DNA of 42,454 nucleotides from Cohnella thermotolerans DSM 17683 (GTDB lineage Bacteria > Bacillota > Bacilli > Paenibacillales > Paenibacillaceae), in contig NZ_AUCP01000060.1 in assembly GCF_000429825.1 (NCBI RefSeq), forward strand, positions 1 to 42,454. Reading direction: 5' to 3'. Numbering within the stretch: position 1 is the first letter of the stretch; each line of letters begins with the position of its first letter. Below are positions 7,131-41,396 of the stretch, piece after piece. A model generated the notes under the pieces. The model did not search any database. It was not told the DNA's origin and saw only the letters and a program-made list of their open reading frames with translations. Made by a program: the position numbers and the translations under genes.

Positions 7131-7182
7131 GACCGTAGGGATCCCGAAGCGGGTCCCCTTTAGAAACCCATTGAACGCAGCC

Positions 7183-7214
7183 GAGAGGCCGCCCGGTTCG
7201 CCGGGCGGTCTCTC
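7183..7214 (+). terminator. Strong hairpin between phoX and the multicopper oxidase gene
   Basis: A 14-bp stem (GAGAGGCCGCCCGG, loop TTCG, then a near-perfect complement) sits 50 bases past the phoX stop and 20 bases before the next start codon. The T tract is short. It could end the phoX transcript or only weaken read-through into the oxidase gene. Confidence 0.65.
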
Positions 7215-7234
7215 TTCAAGGAGAGGATTGAAGG

Positions 7235-16093: not shown

Positions 16094-16095
16094 GT

Positions 16096-19618: not shown

Positions 19619-20434
19619 TCAAACCCGATGTGTCTTACGATAGCGGGAAGGGCTGACGTGATACGTCTCGGAGAAAACTCTGCTCAGGTAAAAGCCGTTG
19701 TCAAATCCGCACTGGCTTGCGATCTCCTCCAAGGTCTGGTCGGTGCCCGTCAGCAAGCTAAGGGCTTTTCTCAATCTGATGGATTTCAGATAGTCCGAAG
19801 GCTTGATTTGAAAAGCCTGCCGAAATCGGCGGGTGAATTGAACCGGACTCAGCCCGCAATCGGAGGCGATCTGCCGTAGGGAAAGCTTGGTGAAGGCCAA
19901 GTCGTAAATGCGTCTGGCGGCTTCGTTCATCATTCGATCATCGCCAATCAGCAGAGTAGCGTCATCCGTCAGCCGGCTGCGTTCGCTGCACAATTGAAAC
20001 CACAAATCCTGCAGCAGATGGGAGCGCCATGCGAAGCTGTGCGGCGAGACATTCTCGGCCGCTCTGCGCATACAGGCATACGTATTGGACAGACGTTTGA
20101 CGTCGTTGAAGACCAATGCCCCCCAGGGAATATCGGTTTCGGGCGATCCGTCGTGATCCGGCCCCGTGTGTATAAAGGCAAACTGAACAAAGTGAAACGA
20201 GAGGGGGGACAGGGTTTCGCGAATAAAAGGGGTTCCCGGCGGACACAGGATCAGCTGACCGAATTGGCCGATGCCTTCTTGTTCACCGATCCGATAGTGA
20301 AAGCTTCCTTCTTCCACGCCGAAGGCCACCCATTGATCGTAAAGATCTTCGGCCAGAAGAAATTGCTCCTTGCGCGTCCAGACATGATGATGAATCAATT
20401 GCGGACGATAGTGCCACAGCACCTCTTCCTCCAT
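19619..20434 (-). CDS. AraC-family transcriptional regulator with cupin-like sensor domain
   Basis: The 271-residue protein has an N-terminal cupin-like beta domain (about 10-110; F-G-V-E-E-G-S-F-H-Y and I-L-C-P-P-G-T-P-F) that normally binds a sugar. Two C-terminal helix-turn-helix motifs follow at about 170-268 (T-K-L-S-L-R-Q-I-A-S-D-C-G-L-S-P-V-Q-F-T-R-R-F, and L-E-E-I-A-S-Q-C-G-F-D-N-G-F-Y-L-S-R-V-F). The ATG at 20434 has a GAGGGAGAGG site, better than the GTG two codons earlier. It is divergent from the FAD oxidoreductase gene, so it probably controls that gene and perhaps the whole glycan locus. Confidence 0.9.
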   Translation of the reverse strand: MEEEVLWHYRPQLIHHHVWTRKEQFLLAEDLYDQWVAFGVEEGSFHYRIGEQEGIGQFGQLILCPPGTPFIRETLSPLSFHFVQFAFIHTGPDHDGSPETDIPWGALVFNDVKRLSNTYACMRRAAENVSPHSFAWRSHLLQDLWFQLCSERSRLTDDATLLIGDDRMMNEAARRIYDLAFTKLSLRQIASDCGLSPVQFTRRFRQAFQIKPSDYLKSIRLRKALSLLTGTDQTLEEIASQCGFDNGFYLSRVFSETYHVSPSRYRKTHRV

Positions 20435-20487
20435 GGCCACGCCTCTCCCTCTGAATGAAATAAAATATATGTATTATGATAATTCGC

Positions 20488-20540
20488 TGCATGTAAAAAG
20501 AAAAGAAGAAGGTATACGATGAAATTATCTGCATATAAAA
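20488..20540. promoter_or_regulatory. Divergent control region with two direct repeats
   Basis: TGCATGTAAAA (20488-20498) and TGCATATAAAA (20530-20540) are direct repeats matching at 10 of 11 positions. They lie 42 bases apart, about four helical turns, between the AraC-type gene and the oxidoreductase gene. The arrangement fits AraC-type binding half-sites. Confidence 0.4.
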
Positions 20541-20552
20541 GGTGGGAGAGGC

Positions 20553-22799
20553 ATGAAGTACGAAGAGGTGCTGACGGATATCACCGTCATCGGCGGAGGT
20601 CTTGCCGGCGTTTGCGCGGCGGTCGCCGCCGCGAGGCAGGGGCGCACGGTCGCTCTGATCAACAATCGGCCCGTCCTCGGGGGCAATTCCAGCAGCGAGG
20701 TTCGGGTATGGGTGTGCGGCGCAACCGGCCATGGCGTTAATCGCTATGCCAGAGAGACCGGGATTATGGGGGAAATGTTCCTGGAGAATCAGTACCGCAA
20801 TAAAGAAGGCAATCCTTATTTGTGGGACCTGATCGTGCTTGAGACGGTGAAGGCCGAACCGAACATCCGGCTGTTCCTCAATACCGATGTTCATGAAGTA
20901 GAGGCCTATGGAGATGAGGAGGAGCGGAAGATCCGTTCGGTGACCGGATGGATGATGGGGTCCGAGCGGAAGATCCGCTTCGAGAGCACGATGTTTATCG
21001 ACTGCACAGGCGACGGGTTGATCGGCTTTCTGGCCGGGGCCAAGTACAGGCTGGGCCGTGAGGCCCGGCATGAATTCGGGGAAGCGTGGGCCCCCGAAGA
21101 AGCGGACAACATCACGCTGGGAAGCACGATCCTGTTCTATACCAAGGACGCCGGGCACCCCGTCCGATATGTTCCCCCGAGCTTCGCCAAAGATATTACG
21201 CAGACGTCCATTCCCGTGAAGCGGGTGATCCGCAGCGGGGATTCCGGGTGCCATTACTGGTGGATCGAATGGGGCGGGGAATTGGACACGGTCCATGAGA
21301 ATGAACGGATTCGGGATGAGCTCTGGTCGGTCATTTACGGCATATGGGATTTCATCAAAAATTCGGGACGGTTCGACGCCGACAACATGACGCTGGAATG
21401 GGTGGGGGCGCTGCCGGGCAAGCGGGAATATCGCCGGTTCATCGGAGATTATGTGTTGAACCAGAACGACCTCGTCGCTCAGAAGCCGTTTCACGATCGA
21501 ATCGCCTTCGGCGGCTGGTCCATCGATCTGCATCCGCCGCAAGGGATGTACGCAACGGAGAGCGGATCCAAGCATTATCATATGGACGGCATTTACCATA
21601 TCCCGTTCCGCTCCCTGTATTCCGTCAATGTGAGCAATCTGTTGTTCGCGGGACGCGATATCAGTGCGACCCATGTCGCCTTCGGCACTACACGGGTGAT
21701 GGCGACGTGCGCCGTCATGGGGGAAGCGGCCGGGACCGGTGCGGCATTGGCCGTTGACAAAGCGGTAACTCCCCGGGTCATTGCGGCCGAATATATGGAG
21801 GAGCTCCAGCAGCTCCTGCTGAAGCAGGATGCGTCCATCATCGGCATAGCTAACGCGGATTCCGCGGATCTGGCCAGACAAGCTCACGTTACGGCTTCGA
21901 GCGCGATGAGGGTTTTATCCGTAGAGCAATCCGATCGGGTCTATCGCTTGGAGCGCGATGCCGGACTGCTGTTCCCCGTCGATCCGAAGCTGGAGCGGTT
22001 GGAGCTCTTGGTGGACGCGGATGAAGCGACGACGCTGCAGGTTGAACTGTGGGATACGGGGAGAAAAGAAAATTACGTTCCGGCGAATCGGCTTGCGGCG
22101 GTCACGCAGCGCGTGCCGCAAGGAAGCCGCCAATGGATAAGCTTGCCGCTGCCATGGGCCCCGGCGGAAGCACAGAATGCATTCGTGATTGTTCGCGCCA
22201 ATTCGCACGTATCGCTTCACCTCTCCGCCCGGCCGGTCACCGGCGTGCTTTCGTTTCAATATGCGCCGCCGGCCGCAGGCAATCGGGATTTTTCCTCGCT
22301 TAAAGAGGACCAGCCGGTCATCGCCTGGAGCATGAAAGGACTTGAACGGCAAACGTTCTGTTTTCGGATTTCGCCCGAAACGGAAGCGTTCTCTCCCGAT
22401 AAAGCGGTTGACGGGTACGCAAGGCCGTATGGCGGGCCGCATCTATGGGTATCGGAACCGTTAAGGCCGGACGGCGAGGAATGGATTCAATTGGCGTGGG
22501 AGGCCGAGCCGTTCATACGGGAAGTTCATATCACGTTCAATGACGACGTGAATGAGGATCTCATCAATCTGCACCATCATTTCACCCCGTTCGAGGTGAT
22601 TCCGGAGCTGGTGAAGCAATACCGATTGGAAGCTCATGTAGGCGGCGAATGGCAAGTGCTTGTGCATCATCGGAACAATCGCAGACGCAAACAGATTCAC
22701 CGGTTGGACCGGCCGGTTGCGGCCGACCGTCTGCGATTGGTGGTGGAGGAAACGAATGGAAGCCGTTGCGTGGAAGTGATTGAACTGCGCGTTTATTAA
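20553..22799 (+). CDS. FAD-dependent oxidoreductase with C-terminal discoidin-like domain
   Basis: The 748-residue cytoplasmic protein has an N-terminal FAD-binding Rossmann motif G-G-G-L-A-G (residues 14-19), the E/D-type loop, G-G-N-S-S-S-E, D-C-T-G-D-G near residue 153 and the late motif L-L-F-A-G-R-D-I-S-A-T-H. These are hallmarks of the FAD_oxidored group. After about residue 460 come two beta-rich segments. The last (D-K-A-V-D-G-Y-A-R-P-Y-G-G-P-H-L-W-V-S to the end) looks like an F5/8-C/discoidin carbohydrate-binding fold. No signal peptide is present. Its position beside sugar transporters and glycosidases suggests oxidation of a sugar or sugar derivative, but the substrate is unknown. 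An AGGTGGGAGAGG site precedes the ATG. Confidence 0.85.
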   Translation: MKYEEVLTDITVIGGGLAGVCAAVAAARQGRTVALINNRPVLGGNSSSEVRVWVCGATGHGVNRYARETGIMGEMFLENQYRNKEGNPYLWDLIVLETVKAEPNIRLFLNTDVHEVEAYGDEEERKIRSVTGWMMGSERKIRFESTMFIDCTGDGLIGFLAGAKYRLGREARHEFGEAWAPEEADNITLGSTILFYTKDAGHPVRYVPPSFAKDITQTSIPVKRVIRSGDSGCHYWWIEWGGELDTVHENERIRDELWSVIYGIWDFIKNSGRFDADNMTLEWVGALPGKREYRRFIGDYVLNQNDLVAQKPFHDRIAFGGWSIDLHPPQGMYATESGSKHYHMDGIYHIPFRSLYSVNVSNLLFAGRDISATHVAFGTTRVMATCAVMGEAAGTGAALAVDKAVTPRVIAAEYMEELQQLLLKQDASIIGIANADSADLARQAHVTASSAMRVLSVEQSDRVYRLERDAGLLFPVDPKLERLELLVDADEATTLQVELWDTGRKENYVPANRLAAVTQRVPQGSRQWISLPLPWAPAEAQNAFVIVRANSHVSLHLSARPVTGVLSFQYAPPAAGNRDFSSLKEDQPVIAWSMKGLERQTFCFRISPETEAFSPDKAVDGYARPYGGPHLWVSEPLRPDGEEWIQLAWEAEPFIREVHITFNDDVNEDLINLHHHFTPFEVIPELVKQYRLEAHVGGEWQVLVHHRNNRRRKQIHRLDRPVAADRLRLVVEETNGSRCVEVIELRVY

Positions 22800-22820
22800 T
22801 ATCGACGGATGGATTCACTT

Positions 22821-22849
22821 GAGAGGGGTATGCCTAGCATACCCCTCTC
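22821..22849 (+). terminator. Perfect 13-bp hairpin after the FAD oxidoreductase gene
   Basis: GAGAGGGGTATGC and GCATACCCCTCTC pair around a CTA loop, 21 bases after the stop. No T tract follows, so it may be a processing or attenuation hairpin rather than a full terminator. Confidence 0.6.
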
Positions 22850-23056
22850 GCCTGTTGTACGCCCAAAAGGAGGCGGAAAACAAAAAAATCATCCGATCAC
22901 AAAAAAAGCGTGGCGCCTTTTCCGAACAAGGGAGTGGCCTCGCAAAAAGTGCGGATTTGCTTGCGGAACCGCATCTGCTATTTTCGATTCACCGGCACAT
23001 TAGCGGCATGATCATGCAGCGCAGAATGGGCACAGAACACGGAAAGGAGAACGTTC
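22850..23056. other. Leader region before the first permease gene
   Basis: About 200 bases with A-rich runs and no supported coding frame. It probably holds the promoter of the transport operon, but no confident -10/-35 pair was found. Confidence 0.4.
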
Positions 23057-24025
23057 ATGGAATCTTCAGCCGGGCATCGCGCCAGCATTCCGATCGGAGC
23101 GGCAGGGCTGGACGCCCAGAAGCCGCTGTGGCGCAGGCGTTGGAGCAGGGATAAATATTTGTACCTGATGCTGGTTCCCGTCGCGATTTATTTCATCTTG
23201 TTCAAGTACGCGCCGCTGTTCGGCGAAGTGATGGCCTTCAAAAATTATCGGTTGTCCGAGGGGATTTGGGGAAGTCCCTGGGTCGGATTGGAGCAATTCC
23301 GGAAGCTGTTCACCAGTCCCGATTTCGTTCAAATTCTCAGAAATACGCTCCTGTTGAACCTGTACAATCTGTTGTTTGCGTTTCCCGTTCCGATCGTTCT
23401 GGCGCTGATGCTGAACGAGCTTCGTTCGGAAGTATACAAGCGAGTTTTGCAAAATCTCTTGTATATTCCGCACTTTATGTCTTGGATCGTGCTTGGCAGC
23501 ATCGTTATCGCGGTTCTGTCTCCCAGCACGGGCATCGTGAATGCGGTCCTGAAATTTTTCGGAGTGGAGCCTATCTATTTTATGGCCAGTACGTTCTGGT
23601 GGCCGATCTCCTTTGTCGGATCGAGCATCTGGCGGGATGCGGGATTCGGAACGATTCTGTACTTGGCCGCGATGGCGTCCGTGAATCCGCAGTTGTACGA
23701 AGCCGCAGCGATCGACGGAGCGAGCAGATGGCGGCAAATCTGGCATGTGACGCTCCCAGGCATTCGCAGCACGATCGCCATTTTGCTTGTTCTGCAGATG
23801 GGCCATATGATGGATGTCGGTTTCGAACAAGTGTATACGCTGCAAAATTCGGCTGTCGGCAGCGTGTCCGAAGTTATCAGCACGTATGTCTATAAACGGG
23901 GGATCGTCGGGCTGCAATACAGCTACACGACAGCGCTCGGCTTGTTTCAATCGGTCGTATCCCTGATCTTGGTCGTGGCGGTCAACCGATTCATACGGGC
24001 GATGGGGGAACGGGGGTTATGGTGA
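23057..24025 (+). CDS. lplB: ABC sugar transporter permease, LplB type
   Basis: The 322-residue protein has six predicted membrane segments after a charged N-terminus. It shows the LplB-type opening L-M-L-V-P-V-A-I-Y-F-I-L-F-K-Y-A-P-L-F-G and the permease-ATPase contact loop E-A-A-A-I-D-G-A-S-R-W-R-Q-I-W-H-V-T-L-P-G near residues 215-235. It forms half of the channel of a carbohydrate importer. LplB-type systems in this group usually take up uronic-acid-containing or plant-derived oligosaccharides and share a general ATPase (MsmX type) encoded elsewhere, which matches the lack of an ATPase gene here. GGAAAGGAG precedes the ATG. The next permease starts one base after its stop. Confidence 0.92.
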   Translation: MESSAGHRASIPIGAAGLDAQKPLWRRRWSRDKYLYLMLVPVAIYFILFKYAPLFGEVMAFKNYRLSEGIWGSPWVGLEQFRKLFTSPDFVQILRNTLLLNLYNLLFAFPVPIVLALMLNELRSEVYKRVLQNLLYIPHFMSWIVLGSIVIAVLSPSTGIVNAVLKFFGVEPIYFMASTFWWPISFVGSSIWRDAGFGTILYLAAMASVNPQLYEAAAIDGASRWRQIWHVTLPGIRSTIAILLVLQMGHMMDVGFEQVYTLQNSAVGSVSEVISTYVYKRGIVGLQYSYTTALGLFQSVVSLILVVAVNRFIRAMGERGLW

Positions 24026-24026
24026 G

Positions 24027-24899
24027 ATGATGCAGGCATCCGGATGGTTCCGTTGGTTGAACACTTTTTTGTTGGGATGTTTCGCGTGCGCCGCGTTGTT
24101 TCCGTTCATTAACATCTTGGCGGTGTCCTTCAGCAGCAGCCGCGCCATCAATGCGGGGGAAGTGTCGCTATGGCCGATCGAATTCAATCTGGACGCCTAC
24201 CGCAATTTGATTGCGGACGGGCAACTGCTGGTGGCAATGAGAAATTCGCTGGTAATCACCTTGGTCGGCACGGCCTTCAACATGCTGTTTACCGTGCTGG
24301 CCGCGTATCCGTTGTCGAAGCGGCGGCTTCAAGGAAGAAATGTCATGCTGATGGGTATTTTGTTTACGATGCTGTTCGGCGGCGGGCTCATTCCGAACTT
24401 TCTGCTGATCAGTTCGCTCGGTCTGGTCAATTCGTACTGGGGGCTTTGGCTGCCGGCGCTTATCAGCGCTTACAACATGTTTGTCATGAAATCGTTCTTC
24501 GAGGGGCTGCCGGAAGAGCTGGAGGAATCCGCAGCCATCGACGGCGCCAAGGATTGGATGATCCTGTGGAGAATCATTCTGCCGATCTCCATGCCCGTCA
24601 TTGCGGCTTTGACCCTCTTCTACGCCGTGGGATGGTGGAACAATTATTTTAATGTTCTGATCTACATCAAAAGCACCGACAAGCTGTCCCTTACGGTCAA
24701 GCTGTACCAAATGCTGCAGAACGTAAGCTCGGAGCTGCTCCGGACGACGAATGGGGAAGGCGCCTTGCAAACGACGATCACACCGGAAGGGATTCGTGCC
24801 GCATCGATCGTGATCGCAGTTTTGCCGATTCTGTGCGTGTATCCGTTCTTGCAGAAGCATTTTGTCAAAGGAGTCCTGATGGGCTCGGTGAAGGGTTGA
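24027..24899 (+). CDS. ABC sugar transporter permease, YtcP/LplC type
   Basis: The 290-residue protein has six membrane segments and the EAA loop E-E-L-E-E-S-A-A-I-D-G-A-K-D-W-M-I-L-W-R-I-I-L-P near residues 170-193. It ends with L-M-G-S-V-K-G, typical of the YtcP/LplC half of these importers. It pairs with the preceding LplB-type permease; the tight spacing (one base) suggests coupled translation. Either of two adjacent ATG codons could be the start. The next gene is the binding lipoprotein of the same system. Confidence 0.92.
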   Translation: MMQASGWFRWLNTFLLGCFACAALFPFINILAVSFSSSRAINAGEVSLWPIEFNLDAYRNLIADGQLLVAMRNSLVITLVGTAFNMLFTVLAAYPLSKRRLQGRNVMLMGILFTMLFGGGLIPNFLLISSLGLVNSYWGLWLPALISAYNMFVMKSFFEGLPEELEESAAIDGAKDWMILWRIILPISMPVIAALTLFYAVGWWNNYFNVLIYIKSTDKLSLTVKLYQMLQNVSSELLRTTNGEGALQTTITPEGIRAASIVIAVLPILCVYPFLQKHFVKGVLMGSVKG

Positions 24900-24970
24900 T
24901 GTCATAAGAGCCTCGCGGCCTTGTGATAGATTGCCAGATGATTTAAGGTAAAAAAATGAGGAGGAGTCAA

Positions 24971-26584
24971 ATGAACAGGAATTTCAAAAAATGGACAGCT
25001 GCGCTTGTGCCTTTGAGTCTGTCCGCAGCCCTATTGTTCTCCGGGTGCTCAAAAGGAAGCACGTCGGCTAACGGCGGCGCGGCTACGGACAGCGGAAGCC
25101 CTGCAGCGACGGCAGCCGGCAGCCAGGACAAGTACGACAGCTTGCCCAAAGATGTAAGCATTTCCATGTTCGACCGGGGGCAAGTGTCGAGCGATGAGGG
25201 AACGTACGAGGATAACCGTTGGGTGAAGTGGATTCGCGAGCAGTCCGGCATCAATCTAACCGTTGTGCCCGTGCCGCGCAACCAGGCGCAGGATAAGCTG
25301 AACGTGCTGATCGCATCCAATCAGGCTCCCGACTTGATCTGGGAATACGACCGCAATTACATCGGAAACCTGGTGTCGCAGGGCGTTATTCAGCCGTTGG
25401 ACGACTACATCGATAAATACAGCACGACTTACAAAAAATACCTGCAGGAAAACCCGGATTTGAAGCCGTATATTACATTCGACGGCAAGATCTATGCAAT
25501 GACGACACGCCGGACCATCAGCAGCATCGCCAATCATGGCATCTGGATCCGGCAGGACTGGCTCGACAAGCTGAAGCTGAAGACGCCGACGACCATCGAG
25601 GAATTAATCGCGGTCGCCCAGGCGTTCAAGGACGGGGATCCGGACGGCAACGGGAAAGCGGATACCGTGCCCATTGTCGGCTATACGACGAACGATGTGT
25701 ATGCCGCGCTGTTCGGCACCGACTATTACGATTGGTATCTGCAAGACGGCCAAATGAAATTCGGCCCCACGCTGGACAACTTCGGCGATGCGCTGGCTGC
25801 CGAGAAAACGATCTATGAGCAGGGATTGGCCGACAAAGAATATTTTACGGACAACGACAATTCCCGCGCAAAGCAGCTTTGGACCACGGGCAAGGCCGGC
25901 ATCCTGCTCGGCCAATGGGGAAATATGACGACCAGCCTGAACCGGGATTTGCTGACGAACGATCCGAATGCGAAGCCCGTACCGCTTGAGCCGGTAGCGA
26001 CGAAATACGGGAAGTTCGGCCTGTATCAGGAAACTCCCGCTTACATTTATGTAACCTTCAACAAAGATATGAAGAATCCGAAAGCCGCCATGGAATATTT
26101 GGACTGGTTGATGGATAAAGGCTGGTTTACGCTGACCAACGGCCAGGAGGGTGTTCATTATAAACTGGTGAACGGCGTGCCGCAGCAACTGGATGCGGAT
26201 AAATTCGCGAAAGAAGTGAAATACGCGAACGAATACGCGGTGCTCAAACCGGCGGAGGAAAAACCGGAAGACCTGATTGTCAAAGCGGCGCAGGATCCGC
26301 TGTCCCAGCAGTTGGCAAAGCTGGAGGCCGATTCGCTTCAAATCGCTTTGAAAAACAAATTCCGGCGCGATATTCCGTATCAGCCGAACATTACCGAGAT
26401 TAACGAACTGAAGTCGTCGTTCCTGAAGACCGTTCTTGATATCCGTGCGAAGACCGTTACCCGCAAGGATTATACGGCGGAAGAAGCTCTCGCGGATATC
26501 CGCAAAGAATGGAAGCGCTTAGGCGGCGACCAAGCCGAACAATTGGCGCAGGAATGGTACGAGAAGAATAAGGCGAATTTCTAA
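24971..26584 (+). CDS. Extracellular oligosaccharide-binding lipoprotein, LplA type
   Basis: The 537-residue protein has a lipoprotein signal ending in the lipobox L-F-S-G-C, so Cys is lipidated and the protein is anchored outside the membrane. A Ser/Gly/Ala-rich linker leads into a type-1 solute-binding fold with the LplA-family features R-G-Q-V...N-R-W-V-K-W-I, F-D-G-K-I-Y-A-M, W-I-R-Q-D-W-L-D-K-L and D-P-D-G-N-G-K-A-D-T, the last a calcium-loop-like stretch common in this family. It delivers the oligosaccharide to the two upstream permeases. The ATG at 24971 has a GAGGAG site; an earlier start would add five residues in front of the signal. Confidence 0.92.
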   Translation: MNRNFKKWTAALVPLSLSAALLFSGCSKGSTSANGGAATDSGSPAATAAGSQDKYDSLPKDVSISMFDRGQVSSDEGTYEDNRWVKWIREQSGINLTVVPVPRNQAQDKLNVLIASNQAPDLIWEYDRNYIGNLVSQGVIQPLDDYIDKYSTTYKKYLQENPDLKPYITFDGKIYAMTTRRTISSIANHGIWIRQDWLDKLKLKTPTTIEELIAVAQAFKDGDPDGNGKADTVPIVGYTTNDVYAALFGTDYYDWYLQDGQMKFGPTLDNFGDALAAEKTIYEQGLADKEYFTDNDNSRAKQLWTTGKAGILLGQWGNMTTSLNRDLLTNDPNAKPVPLEPVATKYGKFGLYQETPAYIYVTFNKDMKNPKAAMEYLDWLMDKGWFTLTNGQEGVHYKLVNGVPQQLDADKFAKEVKYANEYAVLKPAEEKPEDLIVKAAQDPLSQQLAKLEADSLQIALKNKFRRDIPYQPNITEINELKSSFLKTVLDIRAKTVTRKDYTAEEALADIRKEWKRLGGDQAEQLAQEWYEKNKANF

Positions 26585-26614
26585 CGAAACGGACAACGAG
26601 CGGGGGAACAGAGC

Positions 26615-28966
26615 ATGGGCATCTTGCGGAATCAATCGACAAAAAAAACCGTGATCGTGCTGTTATTGCTCCTGTTCCTCGTCGTTTCCATGATCTCCTT
26701 TTTATCGTATCGAGTGGCGACCAACCGGCTGAAATACGAGTCGACGAGCACCCATATGGCGCTGCTCAGTCAGATCGACAACAAGATGGAGCTCGTTCTT
26801 CAGGAGATCAACAAAGAGTCGATCGATATTCTCGGGAACGAGGATGTCAAGAGGTTTTTCGATGATAATTTGAACGACCAGGAGAGCCTCGACAATACCT
26901 ACCGGCTCAACAATTACTTCGCCCGCTTCGTCAACGCCGGCGAATACGTGTATTCCGTCGATTTGTATTCGTACGTCCGGAAGCGGCTCTTCTCGGGAAG
27001 CCCGTTGAACGACGGGCATATCACGGAGGATGATGATTGGATCCGTCCGTTCGAGAAGTTTGACGGTTATTCGAGTTGGCTGCCGACACGGAAGCTGTTG
27101 CTCAACGAATCGAATTTTCCGATCTACCGGAACGTTGTGACCCTCGTCCGCTCCTATCCGCTTATTCATTCGCCGGGTTACCGGCGCGGGGCGGTGGCGA
27201 TCAACATCAAGGAAGATGCGCTTTATCGTTTGCTGACGGATGCCAATAATCGAAGCCTGGGCAGTCTCTATCTCCTGGATCCGAACGGACATGTCGTATC
27301 GAGCGCGGATAAAAAGTTGGTCGGACAGGATATGCATCAATCGGACATTATGGCGAAGGTTCTGCAAGGCGAGCGTGAAGGGCATTTTCAAGCGACGTTC
27401 GAGCATGTGCCGAGTTCGGTGTTTTATGTGACATCGGCTTATACCGGCTGGAAAATCGTCAATATCGTGCCCGACGTCCAATTGGACCAGCCGCTCATCA
27501 CGGTCAGGAACGCCTTGATGGTCATTGCCGTGATTCTGTTTGCAGTAGCCGGCCTCATGACCGTATTGGTCGGCCGGTGGACGTTCAAACCGCTGAATCG
27601 GTTGATCGCCAACCTGTCCAAGAAGATGAAAGCCCATCCTCTGTATGCCTTATCCGACTGGGATACGGGCAACGAGTTTACCAATTTCGAGAACATGGTG
27701 CAGCATATTTTGTCGGACAGCGAAAGGCTGCAGATGCAGATCAAGGTAAGCAAACCGATCATGAAATGGCGGCTTCTGATGGAGCTCTTAACCGATTATC
27801 ACGCAAATAACCGGTCTGTCTCGCAGTATATGGAGATGGTCGGCGTGCAGCTGTATCGGAACCGTTTTATCGTCATGAGCGTGGAGTTCGACCGAAAATC
27901 GGAAATCGCGTCAAGCCGGGATTTGCATCTTTACGCTTACGCCTTATGCAACGTCGCGGAAGAACTGATCAATGCGGAAAGCAAAGGTGCGGCCATCGAA
28001 TGGGAGGACGGCCAATGCGCCATTATTCTCAGTTTCGAAGACGATGATTCCGGAGAGCATTCGCTGTACGCCATGGCCGTAGCCGATATGCTGAAAAATT
28101 ACATTCAGGGGCATTTCAAAAAGACGGTGACGATCGGAATCGGCCCGGAGGTTTATCGGATGGAGGACATTCATCTGTCCCACAAGCAATCGATGGAAGC
28201 GCTGAAGTATAAGCTGGTCATGGGACCCAACGCGATTATTACCGCCGACGATATTCCCGATTACAGCGCGGAAGAGTTTCATCGTTTGTTCGCGTTTACC
28301 GACAACATGATCGACTCCATCAAAGTTCTCGATGAAGAGAAGCTGCGCCAGCAGGTGCGGGAATGGTTCGATTCGCTGGCCTCCTCCAATGTGCGGCCCG
28401 ATATCATCAAGCAGCTTGTCGTGCAGCTGCTTATGAAAGCGGCTGTTGTGGCAAGCGACATCGGGGTGCCGCGAGAGGACCTGGCCCCCGCGCAGAAAGT
28501 CAATGAAACGCTGGAGCAATATGAAAGCCTGGAGCAGATCGCGGATTTTGTCACCGGTATCTTGGCCGATTTTATCGATCGAATCCGAACTCGGCGACAC
28601 AATCGGGAGAAAAACGAAGCGATCGAAAAAATCCTGCGCTATATCCAGAAAAATTACATGAGCCATGAAATGTCCCTGAGTTATCTATCATCCCAATTTC
28701 ATATCAGCGTCTCCCACCTGAGCAAAATGTTTAAAGACTACACCGGCGGCAACTTTATCGATTACCTGATGGAGATCCGGATCGGCAAAGCCAAAGAGAT
28801 GCTTGCCCGCGGCAACGGGAAAATCCGCGACATTGCCGAATCGGTAGGATACAACAACGTCAACAGCTTCACCCGCATCTTTAAAAAGATAACCGGCCTG
28901 ACCCCGAGCGAATATCGGGAGCGGGAATGGGACAAAGAGGAAGAGAGAGAGGACCGCGCACTGTAA
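26615..28966 (+). CDS. Membrane-bound AraC-family regulator with extracellular sensor (YesS-like)
   Basis: The 783-residue protein has a membrane segment at about 12-32, an extracellular Cache-like sensor region of about 260 residues and a second membrane segment near 300-322 (M-V-I-A-V-I-L-F-A-V-A-G-L-M-T-V-L-V). A HAMP-like stretch and a long cytoplasmic linker follow. The C-terminal AraC DNA-binding domain (about 683-776) has M-S-L-S-Y-L-S-S-Q-F-H-I-S-V-S-H-L-S-K and I-R-D-I-A-E-S-V-G-Y-N-N-V-N-S-F-T-R. It senses a ligand outside the cell and binds DNA from the membrane, like B. subtilis YesS. It sits 30 bases after the binding-protein gene and 30 before the hydrolase gene, so it most likely regulates this operon. 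Confidence 0.9.
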   Translation: MGILRNQSTKKTVIVLLLLLFLVVSMISFLSYRVATNRLKYESTSTHMALLSQIDNKMELVLQEINKESIDILGNEDVKRFFDDNLNDQESLDNTYRLNNYFARFVNAGEYVYSVDLYSYVRKRLFSGSPLNDGHITEDDDWIRPFEKFDGYSSWLPTRKLLLNESNFPIYRNVVTLVRSYPLIHSPGYRRGAVAINIKEDALYRLLTDANNRSLGSLYLLDPNGHVVSSADKKLVGQDMHQSDIMAKVLQGEREGHFQATFEHVPSSVFYVTSAYTGWKIVNIVPDVQLDQPLITVRNALMVIAVILFAVAGLMTVLVGRWTFKPLNRLIANLSKKMKAHPLYALSDWDTGNEFTNFENMVQHILSDSERLQMQIKVSKPIMKWRLLMELLTDYHANNRSVSQYMEMVGVQLYRNRFIVMSVEFDRKSEIASSRDLHLYAYALCNVAEELINAESKGAAIEWEDGQCAIILSFEDDDSGEHSLYAMAVADMLKNYIQGHFKKTVTIGIGPEVYRMEDIHLSHKQSMEALKYKLVMGPNAIITADDIPDYSAEEFHRLFAFTDNMIDSIKVLDEEKLRQQVREWFDSLASSNVRPDIIKQLVVQLLMKAAVVASDIGVPREDLAPAQKVNETLEQYESLEQIADFVTGILADFIDRIRTRRHNREKNEAIEKILRYIQKNYMSHEMSLSYLSSQFHISVSHLSKMFKDYTGGNFIDYLMEIRIGKAKEMLARGNGKIRDIAESVGYNNVNSFTRIFKKITGLTPSEYREREWDKEEEREDRAL

Positions 28967-28995
28967 ATCCTTAGACGGATAAGGGAGGAAAAATA

Positions 28996-31953
28996 ATGTT
29001 CTCCAATAAACCGGTCGTACGTCTGATGGTCTGGCTGCTCGTCCTGCTGCTGTCGCTTCCTTCTTTTTCAGGGGTGGTGAAAGCGGATACAAGCGAAGGG
29101 CTTGTCGATGATCTGGATAATTTCAATTCCATCTACAGTCATACCGCAAATCTCGTACTGGACTCGTCCAACGCTCAGAATATGGGGGGCGATCTGAAGC
29201 GAATCACCCGCAACAGCACGGACACGGGATCATTGGTCTATAAAACGGATTATGACATCACCTCGTTCACCGTTCCCGCTTATTTCTGGACCGGCACTCC
29301 GGTGATCGATGTCCGGTTTTACGGATCCGCGGACGGCGTCGATTATACGCCGGTGACGCCGAAGATTTATACGTCGGGCCCGTCGGTGGCAAGCTGGCAG
29401 ATGTATGTCTATGAGGCCTTCGGTCTGCCGGCGGGAACGCGGTATTTGAAAATACAGCTGTTAGGCGATGTGAAGTATTGGACCCCGCAAATATCCAAGG
29501 TCATCCTCAATCTCAACACGGCGTCTGTGGAACCCAACCCTCCGTCGGAAACGGTCATTGACGGATCGCAAACGCTTGTCTTGTCCACCGCTACGCCGGG
29601 AGCAGCCATCTATTACAAGAGAAATACGGATACCGCGTATCAATTGTACCAAGCGCCAATCATCCTTACTACGGGTGTGGCGATCGACACGTACGCGCAG
29701 AAAGAAGGTCTTTCTCCCAGCTTTGTCCAAACGCTCTACTACCCTTCCAAGTCCGATTGGCAGATCGACCGGTACGGTCAGGTCATCAAAGCGGATTTTC
29801 CCGAGAAAGTGACGGATGACGCGCAGCTGACGCAAGATGCGGCGGATGATCAGAGCTACTATGACAGCTTGCAGGTTCCAAGCGATCGTGACGCATACGG
29901 GGGCCTGAAGGACAGCGCTCAGCCGTACGGATTGACCGCTACCGGCTTCTTTAGCATACAGCAAACCAACAACGGCCGGACGGTCATGGTTACGCCGGAC
30001 GGAAATGTCTTCTACAGTCTCGGCGTGAACGGGATTACGACCAATGAGACTTATGTCCAAACCAGCGGAAGGAAGAATCAGTTCGAATGGATTCCGCCGC
30101 AGAGCGGGGAGTTTGCCTCGGCTTTCCGCGCGAGCAGTACGGATTTCTCTTACTATATTGCGAACCGTATCCGGAAATTCGGCGCCCCGTACGATGACGG
30201 GCAGTTTGTCAAGCAAGGCATGGATCGGATTCAAAAGTGGGGCTTCAATACGGTCGGGTCCTGGTCCGGCAACTACGCCGCCGAATACGGCATGCCGCAT
30301 GTGAACATGCTGCCGACCTCGAGCATGGATTGGGCCCAGGTGGACGGCATGCATTACTTCGATATTTTCGCGGACGGAGCCGAGCAGAAGATCGACGAAG
30401 CGTTCGCCGCGAAATTGCCGGCCAATCGTGACGATCCCACGCTTATCGGTTATTTTATAGACAACGAAATTCAATACCAGAACATATTGACGGTCATTCC
30501 GCAAGCGAAAGCGAGCAAGGTCGCGTCCAAGCGCAAGCTGGTCGATCTGCTGAGCGAATGGTATAACGGAGACATCTCCGCGTTCAACAGCGCTTGGGGA
30601 ACGTCGTTCGCGAGCTTCGACGAGATGTATGAGGCCGCATTGCCCGTGAAAACGCAGCAGGCGCAAGACGATCTTTACTCGTTCGTCAGCGTGTATGCGG
30701 ATACGCTGTACGGCACGATCGCAACGATTTTCCGCAAATACGATCCGAATCATCTGCTGCTGGGCGACCGCTGGTTGAAAAATACGGTTCAGAACGCCAG
30801 AATTCGCGATATTCTCTCGGAGGCCGCGGGCAAATACCTCGATGTCATCAGCTATAACTATTATTCGAAAAATCTGAGCGTCAGCCAGCTGCAGGCTATT
30901 CACGACAAATCCGGCGGAAAGCCGATTATGATTACCGAGTTCAACTACGGCACGGCGGAGCAGGGACTGAATTCCGGCGTAATCCCGGTGGAGACGCAGG
31001 ACGAGCGGCAGCTTCGCTACCGGAATTACGTGGAACTGGCCGCTTCGCTCGGATACGTGGTCGGCACGCATTGGTTCAATTACGTCGATCAGCCGGCCGC
31101 CGGACGCTGGTGGGAAGGAACGACCGGAGAACGGTACAACACCGGGCTGATCAATGTGGCCGACCGTCCTTATAAGCAGTTCCTGCAAGGCGTAAAACAG
31201 AGCAACGACGAGATATACGACGTCCTTCTCGGCAATCGCGAGCCCTTCCAATACGACTTCGGAGAAGTCGAGCGTCCGGCCAACCGCACTATCGATATCG
31301 CCTATACGTCCAGTCCGATGCTGATCGACGGCATTCGCGACGAAGGATACGATTCTTCGCATCAAGTGCGGCTAAAATATGGAGACCTGGTGGTCGGAAC
31401 CGGCGGTTCCGACATGCAAGCCGGCTATGATTTCGCTTGGGATCAGTCGAATCTGTACGTGTTCGCCGATGTGACGGATCCTACGCCCATGAAAAATCCG
31501 TTTCGCGACAGCAATGTGTGGAAGGGAGACGGGGTCGAGCTGTTCGTCGGGCCGGATCAGCTTGATGTCCGCCAGGGTCTGCTCGTCTCCGACCGGCAGT
31601 TGATCCTAAGCGCGGGAGCGGATGACGGGTCCTATTATTGGCGGTGGTTCAATACTTCCCAGCAATCTCCCATTTCTATGGTTGTTCGCAAGCATGACGA
31701 CGGCGGCGGCTATTCACTGGAAGCAAGCATTCCGTGGGAAGCCTTGAGCCTGACGCCTGAGGAAGGGAAAAGCCTGCTGTTCGACTTCGGCTTCGACGAC
31801 AGCGAGGACGGCGTAAGGCGGATCCGGCAGTGGCTGTGGAACGGGATGGACGGCAATGCCAGCAATCGCGGATACTGGGGGACGGCGACGCTGACGGGCG
31901 GTCCGGATAGGTTCATTCCGCCACAAGACCCCCTCGCCCGCGCCTTGGAATAA
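28996..31953 (+). CDS. Secreted multidomain glycoside hydrolase, clan GH-A, agarase/GH50-like
   Basis: The 985-residue protein has a signal peptide (cleavage after V-K-A near residue 31). A beta-sandwich domain at about 32-175 is followed by a chitobiase/CHB_HEX-type domain at about 178-250 (S-T-A-T-P-G-A-A-I-Y-Y). A TIM-barrel catalytic domain runs from about 310 to 735. The last domain (768-975) is CBM9/DOMON-like (I-D-G-I-R-D-E, D-V-T-D-P-T-P, W-K-G-D-G-V-E-L-F). The barrel has V-T-P-D-G-N-V-F-Y-S-L-G-V-N-G near its start, the acid/base candidate E491 in Y-F-I-D-N-E and the nucleophile candidate E648 in M-I-T-E-F-N-Y-G. This spacing and the opening block are agarase/GH50-like, suggesting exo-action on a beta-galactan-like chain, but the true substrate is open. 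AGGGAGG lies before the ATG. Confidence 0.8.
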   Translation: MFSNKPVVRLMVWLLVLLLSLPSFSGVVKADTSEGLVDDLDNFNSIYSHTANLVLDSSNAQNMGGDLKRITRNSTDTGSLVYKTDYDITSFTVPAYFWTGTPVIDVRFYGSADGVDYTPVTPKIYTSGPSVASWQMYVYEAFGLPAGTRYLKIQLLGDVKYWTPQISKVILNLNTASVEPNPPSETVIDGSQTLVLSTATPGAAIYYKRNTDTAYQLYQAPIILTTGVAIDTYAQKEGLSPSFVQTLYYPSKSDWQIDRYGQVIKADFPEKVTDDAQLTQDAADDQSYYDSLQVPSDRDAYGGLKDSAQPYGLTATGFFSIQQTNNGRTVMVTPDGNVFYSLGVNGITTNETYVQTSGRKNQFEWIPPQSGEFASAFRASSTDFSYYIANRIRKFGAPYDDGQFVKQGMDRIQKWGFNTVGSWSGNYAAEYGMPHVNMLPTSSMDWAQVDGMHYFDIFADGAEQKIDEAFAAKLPANRDDPTLIGYFIDNEIQYQNILTVIPQAKASKVASKRKLVDLLSEWYNGDISAFNSAWGTSFASFDEMYEAALPVKTQQAQDDLYSFVSVYADTLYGTIATIFRKYDPNHLLLGDRWLKNTVQNARIRDILSEAAGKYLDVISYNYYSKNLSVSQLQAIHDKSGGKPIMITEFNYGTAEQGLNSGVIPVETQDERQLRYRNYVELAASLGYVVGTHWFNYVDQPAAGRWWEGTTGERYNTGLINVADRPYKQFLQGVKQSNDEIYDVLLGNREPFQYDFGEVERPANRTIDIAYTSSPMLIDGIRDEGYDSSHQVRLKYGDLVVGTGGSDMQAGYDFAWDQSNLYVFADVTDPTPMKNPFRDSNVWKGDGVELFVGPDQLDVRQGLLVSDRQLILSAGADDGSYYWRWFNTSQQSPISMVVRKHDDGGGYSLEASIPWEALSLTPEEGKSLLFDFGFDDSEDGVRRIRQWLWNGMDGNASNRGYWGTATLTGGPDRFIPPQDPLARALE

Positions 31954-31961
31954 CTTCCCGC

Positions 31962-31983
31962 CCCGGCTCGATTTCGAGCCGGG
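31962..31983 (+). terminator. Terminator of the transporter-hydrolase operon
   Basis: CCCGGCTCG, loop ATTT, CGAGCCGGG, followed by ATTTTTAT, ten bases past the hydrolase stop. It marks the end of the 23,057-31,953 operon. Confidence 0.85.
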
Positions 31984-32151
31984 ATTTTTATGGTGGCTTC
32001 GCCGCAAAAATGGTGTGCGATCGCAAAAGATAAAGGCTGCTAGAGAATAAAAAAGGCGCAAGGGAACAAAAAGAAGCGGTTTTAACCTGCATCGGGCGGT
32101 GATAGTTTATCTGTATCTTAACGTAAAATGCATCGAAGGGAGACTGCGGAT

Positions 32152-33840
32152 TTGAACCGGATGAGCGATTCGGACATGCTGCTGCAAGCCGTACAGGCTA
32201 TGGACGGCATGTATAACCGTGAGATTCGCATGCTGGCAACGCCTTTCAAGAGTCCGGGATACCATACGACGCTCCGACAGGTCGAGACCGTGCACCCCAC
32301 CCGCGAAACCGTCCAATATGCGCTGGCACTGCTCGATACGGAGCTTCCGGAGTACGAGCGAAGAGCGTTCGACATCCTGGAGACGATCGTTTCCTTGCAG
32401 GACACGAATCCGGATCAAGCTACGTTCGGCATCTGGCCGTGGTTCTACGAGGAGCCGCTGTCGCGGATGTCGCCGCCGGATTGGAATTGGGCGGATTTCA
32501 TCGGGAAGAATCTGGTCCTGGCTGCGCTTAGGCACGGCCGCCGGTTCCCGGAAGCGCTGCGGCAGTCGGTCCGACAATCGGTATTCTGCGCTTGCGACGC
32601 CATTATGAAGCGGAATGTCGGGCCTCATTATACGAATATTGCCGTCATGGGGGCGTTCGTCACGCTCCTCGCAGGCGAACTGTACGGACGGCGCGATTAC
32701 GAGCGATACGGCCTGAACAGGCTGAACGGCATTGTCGAATTCACGAGAAAATTGGGTTCGTTCCAGGAATACAACAGTCCGACTTATACGATTGTCGCCG
32801 TATTGGAGCTGTCCAAATTAAAGACCGAAACCAGGAACGAACAAGCCAAGGCATGGTGCGACGAACTGCTCGATAGGGCATGGAAAATGATCGCGGATCA
32901 TTTCCATGCGGGAACGAAGCAGTGGGTCGGTCCGCACAGCCGCAGCTACAGCACGATGCTGTCCGATCGAACCAAAGCCTTTTTGCAGGTGGCCACCGAC
33001 GGGCAATTGCTTTATTTTCCGTGGGATCGGCTGCCGTATGAGGGAGAATGGTTCAAAAGCGGCGTCCGATGCCCGTCTTCCTACCTCCGCTGCTTTACCG
33101 GACGGATGGAAAAGTCGCTCACCCAGTGTTATTTCCGTGATGAATCAGGCGAAGAGAAGAAATGGGCGACCACGTTCATGACCTCCGATTACGCGCTGGG
33201 CACCTTCAGCAGAGAAATCATGTGGAATCAAGCGACTTGTCTGCTGGCTTATGTCCGCAACGGCGGCGGGACGACCTATATGCGCCTTCGCGCGCTGCAT
33301 GACGGCTATGATTTCTGTTCGGCTGTTTTTACCGCTGCGCAGTACAGGGAGCAGGTTCTGTTCGGCGTTTCTTTTCTGACGAACGGGGGAGATACGCATC
33401 CCGCGCTGGATCGAATCGACGGAACGGTGGAAGCGTCCGATATCCGCTTGCGGCTTGAAATCGGGGGCAATCTGAACAACGTGAACGCCGTATCGGCCGG
33501 GGACCGGGCCGCATTTGCGCTGGACGGGCTGAACGTACAGGTCGCCACTTTGTTCGCCGCATTTGACGACGGGACGGATAGAGAGCGATGGGAATGGGAG
33601 ATCGGGAGGAAGGATGAGGTTTGTTTTGCCGATCTGGTCATTTATTCCGGCGACAAGAAAACGATCGATTTCCGTTCCATGCGCGAAGCCGTCTTCCTGT
33701 TCTCGATGGCATTGGGAGAGAAGGCCTCGCGGTTCGAGGCGGTGGTCGAGCACGATTCGGAGCGGGTCAGGGCAACGGGGGATTTGGGGGAAAGGCCGCC
33801 ATTGACCCTGATCTTGCCGAGAAAGCCGCAGACTTTATAA
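32152..33840 (+). CDS. Unrecognised 562-residue protein of a glycan-utilisation locus, probable alpha/alpha-toroid enzyme
   Basis: I do not recognise the family with confidence. The N-terminal 300 residues are helical with repeated aromatic and His/Asp-rich turns (F-G-I-W-P-W-F-Y-E-E-P, P-P-D-W-N-W-A-D-F-I-G, G-P-H-Y-T-N-I-A-V-M, F-Q-E-Y-N-S-P-T-Y, W-V-G-P-H-S-R-S-Y). These resemble the inner helices of alpha/alpha-toroid lyases and hydrolases. The C-terminal 250 residues look beta-rich, as in the sandwich domain of such enzymes. No signal peptide is present, so it acts in the cytoplasm. The TTG at 32152 has an AAGGGAGA site eight bases upstream; an ATG at 32128 lacks one. It precedes the GH105 gene by 16 bases, so the two probably act in sequence on the same oligosaccharide. 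Confidence 0.75.
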   Translation: MNRMSDSDMLLQAVQAMDGMYNREIRMLATPFKSPGYHTTLRQVETVHPTRETVQYALALLDTELPEYERRAFDILETIVSLQDTNPDQATFGIWPWFYEEPLSRMSPPDWNWADFIGKNLVLAALRHGRRFPEALRQSVRQSVFCACDAIMKRNVGPHYTNIAVMGAFVTLLAGELYGRRDYERYGLNRLNGIVEFTRKLGSFQEYNSPTYTIVAVLELSKLKTETRNEQAKAWCDELLDRAWKMIADHFHAGTKQWVGPHSRSYSTMLSDRTKAFLQVATDGQLLYFPWDRLPYEGEWFKSGVRCPSSYLRCFTGRMEKSLTQCYFRDESGEEKKWATTFMTSDYALGTFSREIMWNQATCLLAYVRNGGGTTYMRLRALHDGYDFCSAVFTAAQYREQVLFGVSFLTNGGDTHPALDRIDGTVEASDIRLRLEIGGNLNNVNAVSAGDRAAFALDGLNVQVATLFAAFDDGTDRERWEWEIGRKDEVCFADLVIYSGDKKTIDFRSMREAVFLFSMALGEKASRFEAVVEHDSERVRATGDLGERPPLTLILPRKPQTL

Positions 33841-33856
33841 GAGAAGGAGAAACCGC

Positions 33857-34957
33857 ATGGCGAACGACCTGATGGAACGCAGCCGATTGGCTGAAACGGC
33901 CGATCGTGTGTATCGGCGAATGACGGATATGCCTACCAAGGATTGGGGGATGAATCTGGAGGAATGGGATTGGGTGCCCGGAGTCGGGTTAATCTCGATC
34001 CTCGCGTATACCGAGCTGGGGGAGAAGTCCTCCGCGATTGATGATTTGCGCGGATGGATCGATCGCAACAAACATAAGGCCGGAGAGTCGAAAACGATCA
34101 ATGCCATGGCGCCGTATGCCGTCTTTCCGGAGCTTTATCGTCGCACCGGCGATGCGTGGTACCTGGAGACCGCGAGAAGGATCGGCGATTGGATGGTGAA
34201 GGAGGCGCCGCGCACGCGCGAAATGGCGTTCGAGCACACGGTTACGGAAGATGTGCTGTTTCCGGAGCAGGTATGGGCGGATACGGTGTTCATGGCCGTG
34301 CTCTTTCTAGCGAGGCTTGCGAGGCTTACGGGTGACAGGAGATACGCCGAGGAAGCGGCGTTTCAACTGCGCATCCATCTGCAATTGCTGCAGGATCCGG
34401 ATACCGGACTGCTGTTCCATGGCTGGAACTGCGGCAGCGGGGATCATATGTCGTCCGCCTATTGGACGCGGGCCAACGCATGGGTCGTACTGGCCGCACC
34501 ATGGATCGCCGGAGAAATTGCCGGGATGATGGAAATTCCCGGCGACATCGTTCATCGTTATCAACGGCTGGCGGAAGCATTGCGCGGGTATCAGGGAGAG
34601 AACGGCCTGTGGCCGACGGTTGCGGATCATCCTCATTTTTATCCGGAGACATCGGGCAGCGCCGGAATTGCGGCCGGGTGGTTCGCCGGCAACGCAATCG
34701 GCTGGCTGGACGATTCCTATCTCGATGCCGCGCAAAAAACGCTGAACGGCGTGCTGGCGCAGGTCGCGCCCGACGGAACGGTAACCGGCGTGTCCGGCGG
34801 TACGCCCGTCATGCCGAGCATTGCGGCTTACAACGAGATTCCGTGCTATCCGACACTATACGGGCAAGGTTTGACGCTGATTCTGCTGTCGTATGCTTGG
34901 GCTCGTGCCGGCCAGTCGGAGAGAGGGGAGACGGGAGTCAAAAACAAGATGCAATGA
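33857..34957 (+). CDS. GH105-type unsaturated uronyl hydrolase (YteR-like)
   Basis: The 366-residue cytoplasmic protein matches the GH88/GH105 alpha/alpha-barrel family. It has W-D-W-V-P-G-V-G-L near residue 37, the catalytic Asp142 in Q-V-W-A-D-T-V-F-M (Asp143 in YteR, as I recall), S-G-D-H-M-S-S-A-Y-W-T-R-A-N-A-W, the block F-Y-P-E-T-S-G-S-A-G-I-A-A-G and the family's end Y-G-Q-G-L-T-L-I-L-L-S-Y. The enzyme hydrates the 4,5-double bond of an unsaturated galacturonyl or glucuronyl residue left by a polysaccharide lyase, releasing the neighbouring sugar. Its presence predicts that the imported oligosaccharide carries an unsaturated uronyl end, although no recognised lyase is in the window. 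AAGGAG lies eight bases before the ATG. Confidence 0.9.
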   Translation: MANDLMERSRLAETADRVYRRMTDMPTKDWGMNLEEWDWVPGVGLISILAYTELGEKSSAIDDLRGWIDRNKHKAGESKTINAMAPYAVFPELYRRTGDAWYLETARRIGDWMVKEAPRTREMAFEHTVTEDVLFPEQVWADTVFMAVLFLARLARLTGDRRYAEEAAFQLRIHLQLLQDPDTGLLFHGWNCGSGDHMSSAYWTRANAWVVLAAPWIAGEIAGMMEIPGDIVHRYQRLAEALRGYQGENGLWPTVADHPHFYPETSGSAGIAAGWFAGNAIGWLDDSYLDAAQKTLNGVLAQVAPDGTVTGVSGGTPVMPSIAAYNEIPCYPTLYGQGLTLILLSYAWARAGQSERGETGVKNKMQ

Positions 34958-34997
34958 GATACAATTGGCCAGCGGAAGATAGCTTCTTTAACAATTA

Positions 34998-35026
34998 AAG
35001 TCGACCACATAAGGTCGGCTTATTTT
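34998..35026 (+). terminator. Terminator after the GH105 gene
   Basis: AAGTCGACC and GGTCGGCTT pair (one G-T pair) around a short loop, followed by ATTTTTAT. Confidence 0.8.
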
Positions 35027-35079
35027 TATGGAGCTTTATCCCGATTCATTCCTAGCACCCAAAGAACGAGTGGTACAGA

Positions 35080-35314
35080 CTGCAAGAAGTGGTTGCGGTT
35101 CGTCTCCCGTGATCTGCGCATCATCGCCGAACTCGCCGAGACGACGGGCGGCCTGACGCAACTGCCGCGTCGCATGTACAAGGAGCTGCTGGTCATTCAA
35201 GAGCTCTATCGCCAGCAGCAAGCGATGTACGACAAGCGAACGCATAGCGTACCCGATCGGATTGTCAGTAAAGAAAGATCGTTTTTAAAGAAATGGAAAA
35301 TTAGGAAACTATAA
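35080..35314 (+). pseudogene. IS5-type transposase fragment
   Basis: The frame contains R-F-V-S-R-D-L-R-I-I-A-E-L, then L-P-R-R-M-Y-K-E-L-L-V-I-Q-E-L-Y-R-Q-Q-Q-A-M-Y-D-K-R-T-H-S and V-P-D-R-I-V-S. This is a central helical segment of IS5/ISL-type transposases (L-Y-x-Q-Q-x-x-M-Y-x-x-x-x-x-x-V-x-D-R-I-V-S). The catalytic parts on both sides are gone, and the frame runs into unrelated codons after R-I-V-S. Confidence 0.6.
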
Positions 35315-37273: not shown

Positions 37274-37275
37274 AG

Positions 37276-38892: not shown

Positions 38893-38955
38893 ATAATCCC
38901 CCTGTTGATTAGGATTGTCACTCTCTCCCCGGTTCATCTTTTCCCTACAATAACC

Positions 38956-38970
38956 TTGTAGCCGCTACAA
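38956..38970. promoter_or_regulatory. Perfect palindrome in the binding-protein promoter region
   Basis: TTGTAG-CCG-CTACAA is a perfect inverted repeat in the 107-base gap between the response regulator and the binding-protein gene. It lies next to a TACAAT -10-like box (38946-38951). It is a candidate regulator site. Confidence 0.4.
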
Positions 38971-38999
38971 ATGCGTACATTCAATAGGGAGGATTGCAA

Positions 39000-40436: not shown

Positions 40437-40445
40437 TACGGAGAA

Positions 40446-40473
40446 GGGGCTGTTCAACGGCCCCGTCTTTTTT
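40446..40473 (+). terminator. Attenuating terminator between binding-protein and permease genes
   Basis: GGGGC and GCCCC close a stem over TGTTCAACG, followed by GTCTTTTTT. Sitting inside the operon, it would keep binding-protein mRNA more abundant than permease mRNA. Confidence 0.7.
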
Positions 40474-40489
40474 AAGCGGGGTGAGGATA

Positions 40490-41383: not shown

Positions 41384-41396
41384 GCGGTGAAAACGG

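Follow-up and report, generated by a model that had tools for sequence, protein, structure and literature searches.

The closest known locus to the one reported here is yesOPQR of Bacillus subtilis, which is described as comprising a binding protein, two permeases and the GH105 enzyme YesR, and as dealing with rhamnogalacturonan I pieces (PMC7596534). We analysed a stretch of 42,454 nucleotides from Cohnella thermotolerans DSM 17683 (assembly GCF_000429825.1, 5.05 Mb in 138 contigs; contig NZ_AUCP01000060.1, positions 1–42,454), hereafter called the window. Judged from its genes alone, it holds the gene set of a yesOPQR-type uptake locus, namely a binding protein, two permeases and a predicted cytosolic GH105 of the RhiN/YesR type, with Asn at the position of Asp88 of YteR as in YesR. 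To this set the window locus adds a membrane AraC-type regulator, a secreted GH50-like enzyme and an unrecognised toroid-like protein, for which we use the working name TOR. TOR, and not the flavin adenine dinucleotide (FAD)-dependent oxidoreductase that is also encoded in the region, is the interesting part of a real, recurrent glycan-uptake locus. We give about an even chance to the proposal that this is a sugar-uptake locus in which TOR is a uronic-acid lyase of the cytoplasm and the adjacent GH105 removes the unsaturated ends that TOR makes.

An earlier interpretation of the same DNA (the sequence-only reading) had described a glycan-utilisation locus with a GH105, a toroid protein and a secreted GH50-like enzyme, and this was borne out: all of the genes it named were present in our open reading frame (ORF) and Pfam analysis, with PDB matches in support. 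It had also treated the substrate as unknown; the combination of importer and GH105 resembles yesOPQR, a system with an established substrate.

TOR (32128..33840, + strand) was read as a protein of 570 amino acids, and relatives of 562 amino acids suggest a slightly later start. No Pfam family was matched at E ≤ 0.01, no match was obtained in NCBIfam, and neither a single-sequence nor a profile search of the PDB returned a chain at E ≤ 10; TOR could therefore not be filed under any polysaccharide lyase (PL) family with a solved structure. A sequence link to heparinase-family proteins was tried and rejected (hhalign probability ≤1.9% with four sets from related genomes). The AlphaFold2 model (pLDDT 93.3) predicts an (alpha/alpha) toroid and an antiparallel beta-sandwich, the two-domain architecture of the PL8/12/15/17/21/33/35 group, in line with the "toroid-like" description given to the protein earlier. 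When the model was compared with the PDB by Foldseek, uronate lyases (PL35, PL12, PL17 and PL15) made up 16 of the first 17 hits and the remaining one was a uronyl epimerase; the Foldseek and VIA lists leave room for other toroid families.

The PL35 GAGases (8khv, 8khw) and heparinase III (PL12, 4fnv) have the same combination of toroid and beta-sandwich as predicted for TOR, with an Asn and a Tyr about 50 residues apart. Lyases of this fold are reported to use Asn, Tyr and usually His, as in GAGase II (Asn192/Tyr246/His401) and heparinase III (Asn240/Tyr294/His424) (PMC12088678), and Asn238/Tyr291/His444 are given as the catalytic residues of a PL33 lyase (PMC11848413). Among 207 distinct TOR homologues, gaps left out, Asn170 was conserved in 99.5% and Tyr220 in 100%; His46, His136, Arg162, His260, His270, Arg272, Asp395 and His424 were each conserved in 100%. 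The spacing of Asn170 and Tyr220, counted on sequence positions, is 50 residues, compared with 53–57 in the lyases. We assign only these two, Asn170 and Tyr220, as putative catalytic residues. No signal peptide was apparent by eye, and TOR is likely cytoplasmic. Judged by its predicted fold, TOR likely represents a new PL family. No description of TOR or of such a locus was found in open-access titles and abstracts, a search that did not extend to subscription journals, preprints or CAZy. Two homologues from some Paenibacillus (P0115 and P0122) carry long repetitive insertions rich in Glu, Gln, Asn and Lys inside or after the TOR sequence.

TOR relatives were found in 268 stretches of the named genome collection, and the best 80 were kept as a locus set, with records titled Paenibacillus, Cohnella, Paenibacillaceae or, in one case, Bacillus sp. 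A second set of 38 loci overlaps partly with the first. Among 245 genomes of the family, 92 had a TOR match at E ≤ 1e-5, 44 of them at E ≤ 1e-80; the weak matches (E 1e-5 to 1e-15, mostly 21–34% identity) represent sister groups and were not counted as TOR. A third branch of distant relatives (loci L079, L083 and L085) has His for Asn170 and Trp for Tyr220, with no importer homologue adjacent.

Of the 80 loci, 74 have importer homologues around TOR, 52 of them with a permease that is at least 60% identical, and 72 encode a binding protein. A membrane AraC was present in 69 (20 at ≥40% identity), a GH105 in 45 and a GH50-like enzyme in 5. For the 38-locus set, the GH105 and GH50-like counts were 31 (28 of them adjacent to TOR) and 4, respectively. 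The regular unit is importer, AraC, TOR and end-processing enzyme; the block outlined in the sequence-only reading is conserved in its core of importer, TOR and GH105 and not as a whole. One homologue of 948 amino acids (P0075) is a natural fusion of GH105 and TOR. At least one end-processing gene was present in 60 of the 80 loci, and in the other 20 none lay within reach, some of these loci being ended by a contig end. In 12 loci the gene directly downstream of TOR encodes a PL22 oligogalacturonate lyase (one member checked matched 3c5m at E 2.4e-79 and PF14583 at E 4.9e-82), and none of these 12 has a GH105; the chance figure for this exclusion, 1.4e-5, presumes independent loci, which these are not. 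A diverged PL22-like propeller occurs in 8 further loci, 5 of them with a GH105 (member checked, PF14583 E 1.4e-10).

The secreted enzyme varies between loci, with the GH50-like enzyme as one option among several. In 25 of the 80 loci there is a protein of cluster c0 that joins CBM9 to a GH39/PslG-like domain (one relative matches 5jvk at E 1.4e-33). A large protein combining a PL4-type domain resembling a carbohydrate-binding module (CBM) with CBM6, and a GH3 (clusters c2 and c1), occur in 14 and 16 loci, respectively, and the c2 loci have a different importer, with permeases at most 36% identical. Downstream of TOR in Paenibacillus sedimenti (L199:12237-15881) lies a secreted-type protein in which AbfB and CBM domains accompany an alginate-lyase domain (PF05426, E 2.5e-8).

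The closest named relative locus is that of Cohnella zeiphila (L225), with protein identities of 100% for permease 2, 97% for AraC, 94% for the GH50-like enzyme and 80% for TOR. Over window positions 24300–35200, DNA identity to this locus is 95–99% up to about 31200 and is lower, about 83%, from within the 3' part of the GH50-like gene onwards, across TOR and GH105. This drop looks like a recombination boundary. In the C. zeiphila locus, the GH50-like gene and TOR are also about 1.5 kb further apart, and GH105 reads as two pieces.

The GH105 gene of the window (33857..34957, + strand) starts 16 nucleotides after TOR, and its product matches Glyco_hydro_88 (E 1.9e-63; 215 bits against a cut-off of 26.6) and PDB 3pmm (E 9.9e-48). 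YteR numbering was transferred through a YteR-like protein of the same genome (L001, E 5.7e-139 to 1nc5). By this alignment, Asp143 of YteR corresponds to D142, which is Asp in all 60 family members compared, and the sequence match together with the retained Asp places the protein in GH105 with a predicted hydrolase activity. Tyr41 and Asp88 of YteR correspond to W39 and N82, each found in 59 of the 60 members. RhiN and YesR are reported to carry the same Trp and Asn and to act on unsaturated rhamnogalacturonan (PMC4528949, where the YteR Tyr is numbered 40 in one place and 41 elsewhere). An inactive GH105, as the Asn in place of Asp88 might suggest, was rejected, RhiN and YesR having Asn there. 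The GH105 YesR of Paenibacillus amylolyticus is described as raised only on rhamnogalacturonan I and as without action on homogalacturonan products (PMC7267202; see PMC6339884).

Upstream of TOR, the secreted GH50-like enzyme (28996..31953, + strand, 985 amino acids) carries a CBM9 (E 1.9e-18), and its catalytic domain is matched in full by the GH50 agarase 6xj9 (E 8.8e-44). Residues E491 and E648 align with glutamates of solved agarases that we take to be the GH50 catalytic residues, a role supported by the Gln at the first site in 4bq4. The domain match and both glutamates place the enzyme in GH50, and it would release saturated oligosaccharides, since both residues are kept. It has the catalytic domain and the two glutamates in common with GH50 beta-agarases (6xj9, 4bq2) and differs from them in its CBM9 architecture; agar as a substrate is not implied. 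Its group in Paenibacillaceae is large, with 1597 proteins matched at E ≤ 0.001, and no characterised member was seen there. Many members of the group (relatives of P0002) have S-layer or CBM96 domains, members are named agarase or beta-galactosidase, and the group is far commoner than TOR loci.

The importer consists of ATP-binding cassette (ABC) permease 1 (23057..24025, + strand; BPD_transp_1 E 8.5e-15), permease 2 (24027..24899, + strand; BPD_transp_1 E 1.5e-13) and a solute-binding lipoprotein-like protein with a Cys in its N-terminal stretch (24956..26584, + strand; SBP_bac_1 E 4.9e-19). Importers of this Lpl type use an ATPase shared with other systems. The membrane AraC-type regulator follows (26615..28966, + strand), with HTH_18 (E 5e-22), GGDEF_2 (E 8.6e-9) and a dCache_1 match below the cut-off (E 7.9e-9).

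The uronate-lyase fold predicted for TOR makes it a likely source of the unsaturated ends that a GH105 needs beside a secreted hydrolase. In the pathway we propose, the polysaccharide would be cut extracellularly by the secreted hydrolase, here the GH50-like enzyme, and oligosaccharides that are saturated and contain uronate would enter the cell through the binding protein and the two permeases. Beta-elimination by TOR, using Asn170 and Tyr220, would cleave them, and GH105 would release the unsaturated uronate produced by the TOR step. The general Kdu route serves unsaturated-uronate catabolism. KduI is present elsewhere in the genome, and the released uronate may enter this route. In Paenibacillus taichungensis, a comparable arrangement has been proposed for the lyase Pt_XanPL8a, which lacks a signal peptide and is assumed by its authors to work intracellularly (PMC12827396). 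As modelled for TOR, the lyase would sit in the cytosol and receive its substrate from an ABC importer, with unsaturated-uronyl hydrolases alongside; unlike TOR, Pt_XanPL8a belongs to PL8, acts on xanthan and is paired with GH88.

We favour galacturonate-containing (pectic, rhamnogalacturonan-like) oligosaccharides as the substrate because the GH105 is of the RhiN/YesR type and because 12 of the 80 loci have PL22 instead of it. GH78 genes lie near TOR in loci L075 and L171. The same two lines of evidence weaken the acidic galactan or arabinogalactan target put forward in the sequence-only reading; its broader expectation of a uronic-acid-containing target is supported as the best reading of the data. 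Most likely, TOR would be a cytoplasmic lyase that produces the ends removed by GH105, probably on pectic oligosaccharides of this kind. A search of the genome found neither a PL1-type pectate lyase nor a PL22.

Several observations qualify this proposal. The genome encodes a separate PL11 lyase, three GH78 enzymes and two further strong GH105 proteins, which speaks against plain rhamnogalacturonan I as the substrate of the locus. In contrast to the PL35 GAGases and heparinase III, TOR has no detectable sequence similarity to them, is likely cytoplasmic and has different partners. Speaking against the assignment of the catalytic pair, 6 of nine distant TOR relatives keep Asn170 and 5 keep Tyr220; His424 is kept in 2 and Arg272 in all nine. 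Finally, the substrates of lyases with a TOR-like fold are mostly glucuronate, iduronate or alginate uronates, and GH3, GH38 and GH2 genes near TOR in some loci keep a glucuronate exopolysaccharide in play.

These last two points favour a different substrate, a glucuronate polymer such as the side chains of arabinogalactan or an exopolysaccharide of the xanthan or gellan type, on which TOR would be a glucuronate lyase and GH105 an unsaturated glucuronyl hydrolase. Paenibacillus xanthan loci are reported to unite PL8, GH88, GH38 and GH3 activities (PMC12827396), and the galactan idea of the sequence-only reading agrees with the GH50-like enzyme. We nevertheless regard a glucuronate polymer as unlikely: the residue pair of the GH105 counts against it, the replacement by PL22 fits galacturonate better, and no GH9 or PL8 gene was seen near TOR in the part of the neighbours of relative loci that was scanned.

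It is also unlikely that TOR is a uronyl epimerase or toroid hydrolase that prepares or trims the imported oligosaccharide, with the unsaturated ends made by lyases encoded elsewhere. An epimerase is indeed among the structural neighbours of TOR, but the two-domain, whole-length matches are mostly lyases, and TOR constantly stands alongside GH105 or PL22, both of them enzymes for oligouronides that are unsaturated or made by lyases. No hydrolase-type acidic pair was identified in TOR, although this was not searched for systematically.

Least probable, and in our view very doubtful, is an integral oxidative step by the FAD oxidoreductase: its gene directly follows the GH50-like gene of the TOR locus in Cohnella laeviribosi (L207, the same locus as L062), a 65% homologue lies one gene from TOR in L066 and another PF12831 protein adjoins TOR in L075, but an orthologue (>55% identity) is near TOR in only 1 of 80 and 2 of 38 loci although 131 of the 245 family genomes carry the gene, and its usual neighbours are others.

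The oxidoreductase gene (20553..22799, + strand, 748 amino acids; PF12831 E 2.1e-93, 314.3 bits against a cut-off of 27) is divergent to a soluble AraC regulator (19619..20440, − strand; HTH_AraC E 9.1e-21), most of which lies before position 20434, where the block of the sequence-only reading began. The 131 genomes were counted at E ≤ 1e-60, and identities among the matches listed were mostly 61–71%. Of 20 loci fetched, 19 were readable: the divergent soluble AraC, as in the window, was present in 9, and in 7 the gene directly follows an ABC permease. The oxidoreductase with its own AraC is a widespread general sugar-locus module, separate from the TOR locus, that came to adjoin TOR loci more than once, rarely; the single, unusual oxidative, hydrolytic and lyase pathway envisaged earlier is not upheld. 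A discoidin-like end of the protein, also noted earlier, is visible as F5_F8_type_C, at a score below threshold (E 0.0035; 17.9 bits against 28.2). A second importer operon was rejected as its partner, the two being side by side only in L119 and the closest SBP2 relative (72%, genome G028) coming without a strong FAD match. A 3-keto-glycoside pathway linking it to GH105, suggested by an NCBIfam match to the beta-galactosidase BglB (E 4.2e-70), was likewise rejected; the score of 236 bits falls short of the cut-off (420), and no literature support was found. No account of PF12831 function was found in the open-access literature.

The named genes are probably not one operon, because a perfect 13-bp inverted repeat with a 3-nucleotide loop, read from the sequence, lies between the FAD gene and permease 1 (22821..22849, no strand assigned) and terminator-like hairpins follow the GH50-like gene (31962..31983, + strand; 9 pairs, 8 of them G-C, with a T-rich tail) and GH105 (34998..35021, + strand; 9 pairs, 5 G-C). 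The likely units are FAD, importer-AraC-GH50 and TOR-GH105. Hairpins are not enriched in the region (16 against a shuffled mean of 18.0), so the terminator-like ones are suggestive only.

Elsewhere in the window, positions 35519–42281 hold a second, separate import operon with a sensor kinase, a response regulator with an AraC domain, a binding protein and two permeases. An IS21-type pair lies at 15341–17661 (an IstB-like ATPase together with a transposase that carries rve and Mu C-terminal domains), and at 4962–8668 there are a PhoX-type phosphatase and a multicopper oxidase, each with a domain of the copper-amine-oxidase N-terminal type (the second below cut-off). Rfam gave no matches, ARAGORN no tRNAs and PHROGs nothing useful for the window.

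More broadly, and with somewhat less than even confidence, we suggest that TOR founds a new PL family, with a sister family about 25% identical to it, and works inside the cell on saturated galacturonate-containing oligosaccharides fed to it by a dedicated ABC importer. These would be products of many different secreted hydrolases, which TOR would convert to a form that GH105 or PL22 can use. As an alternative in Paenibacillaceae to the common secreted-lyase pathway for pectin-like glycans, import would come first and elimination later. The TOR search returned at least 1071 matches at E ≤ 0.001 and the sister search at least 158. Should the proposal hold, a testable function would be gained for many proteins that are at present annotated as hypothetical or, by automatic naming, as "heparinase", and an unstudied lyase would become available for making unsaturated oligosaccharides. 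It would also explain how GH105 is fed in loci with secreted hydrolases, and a recurrent type of Paenibacillaceae locus would become readable.

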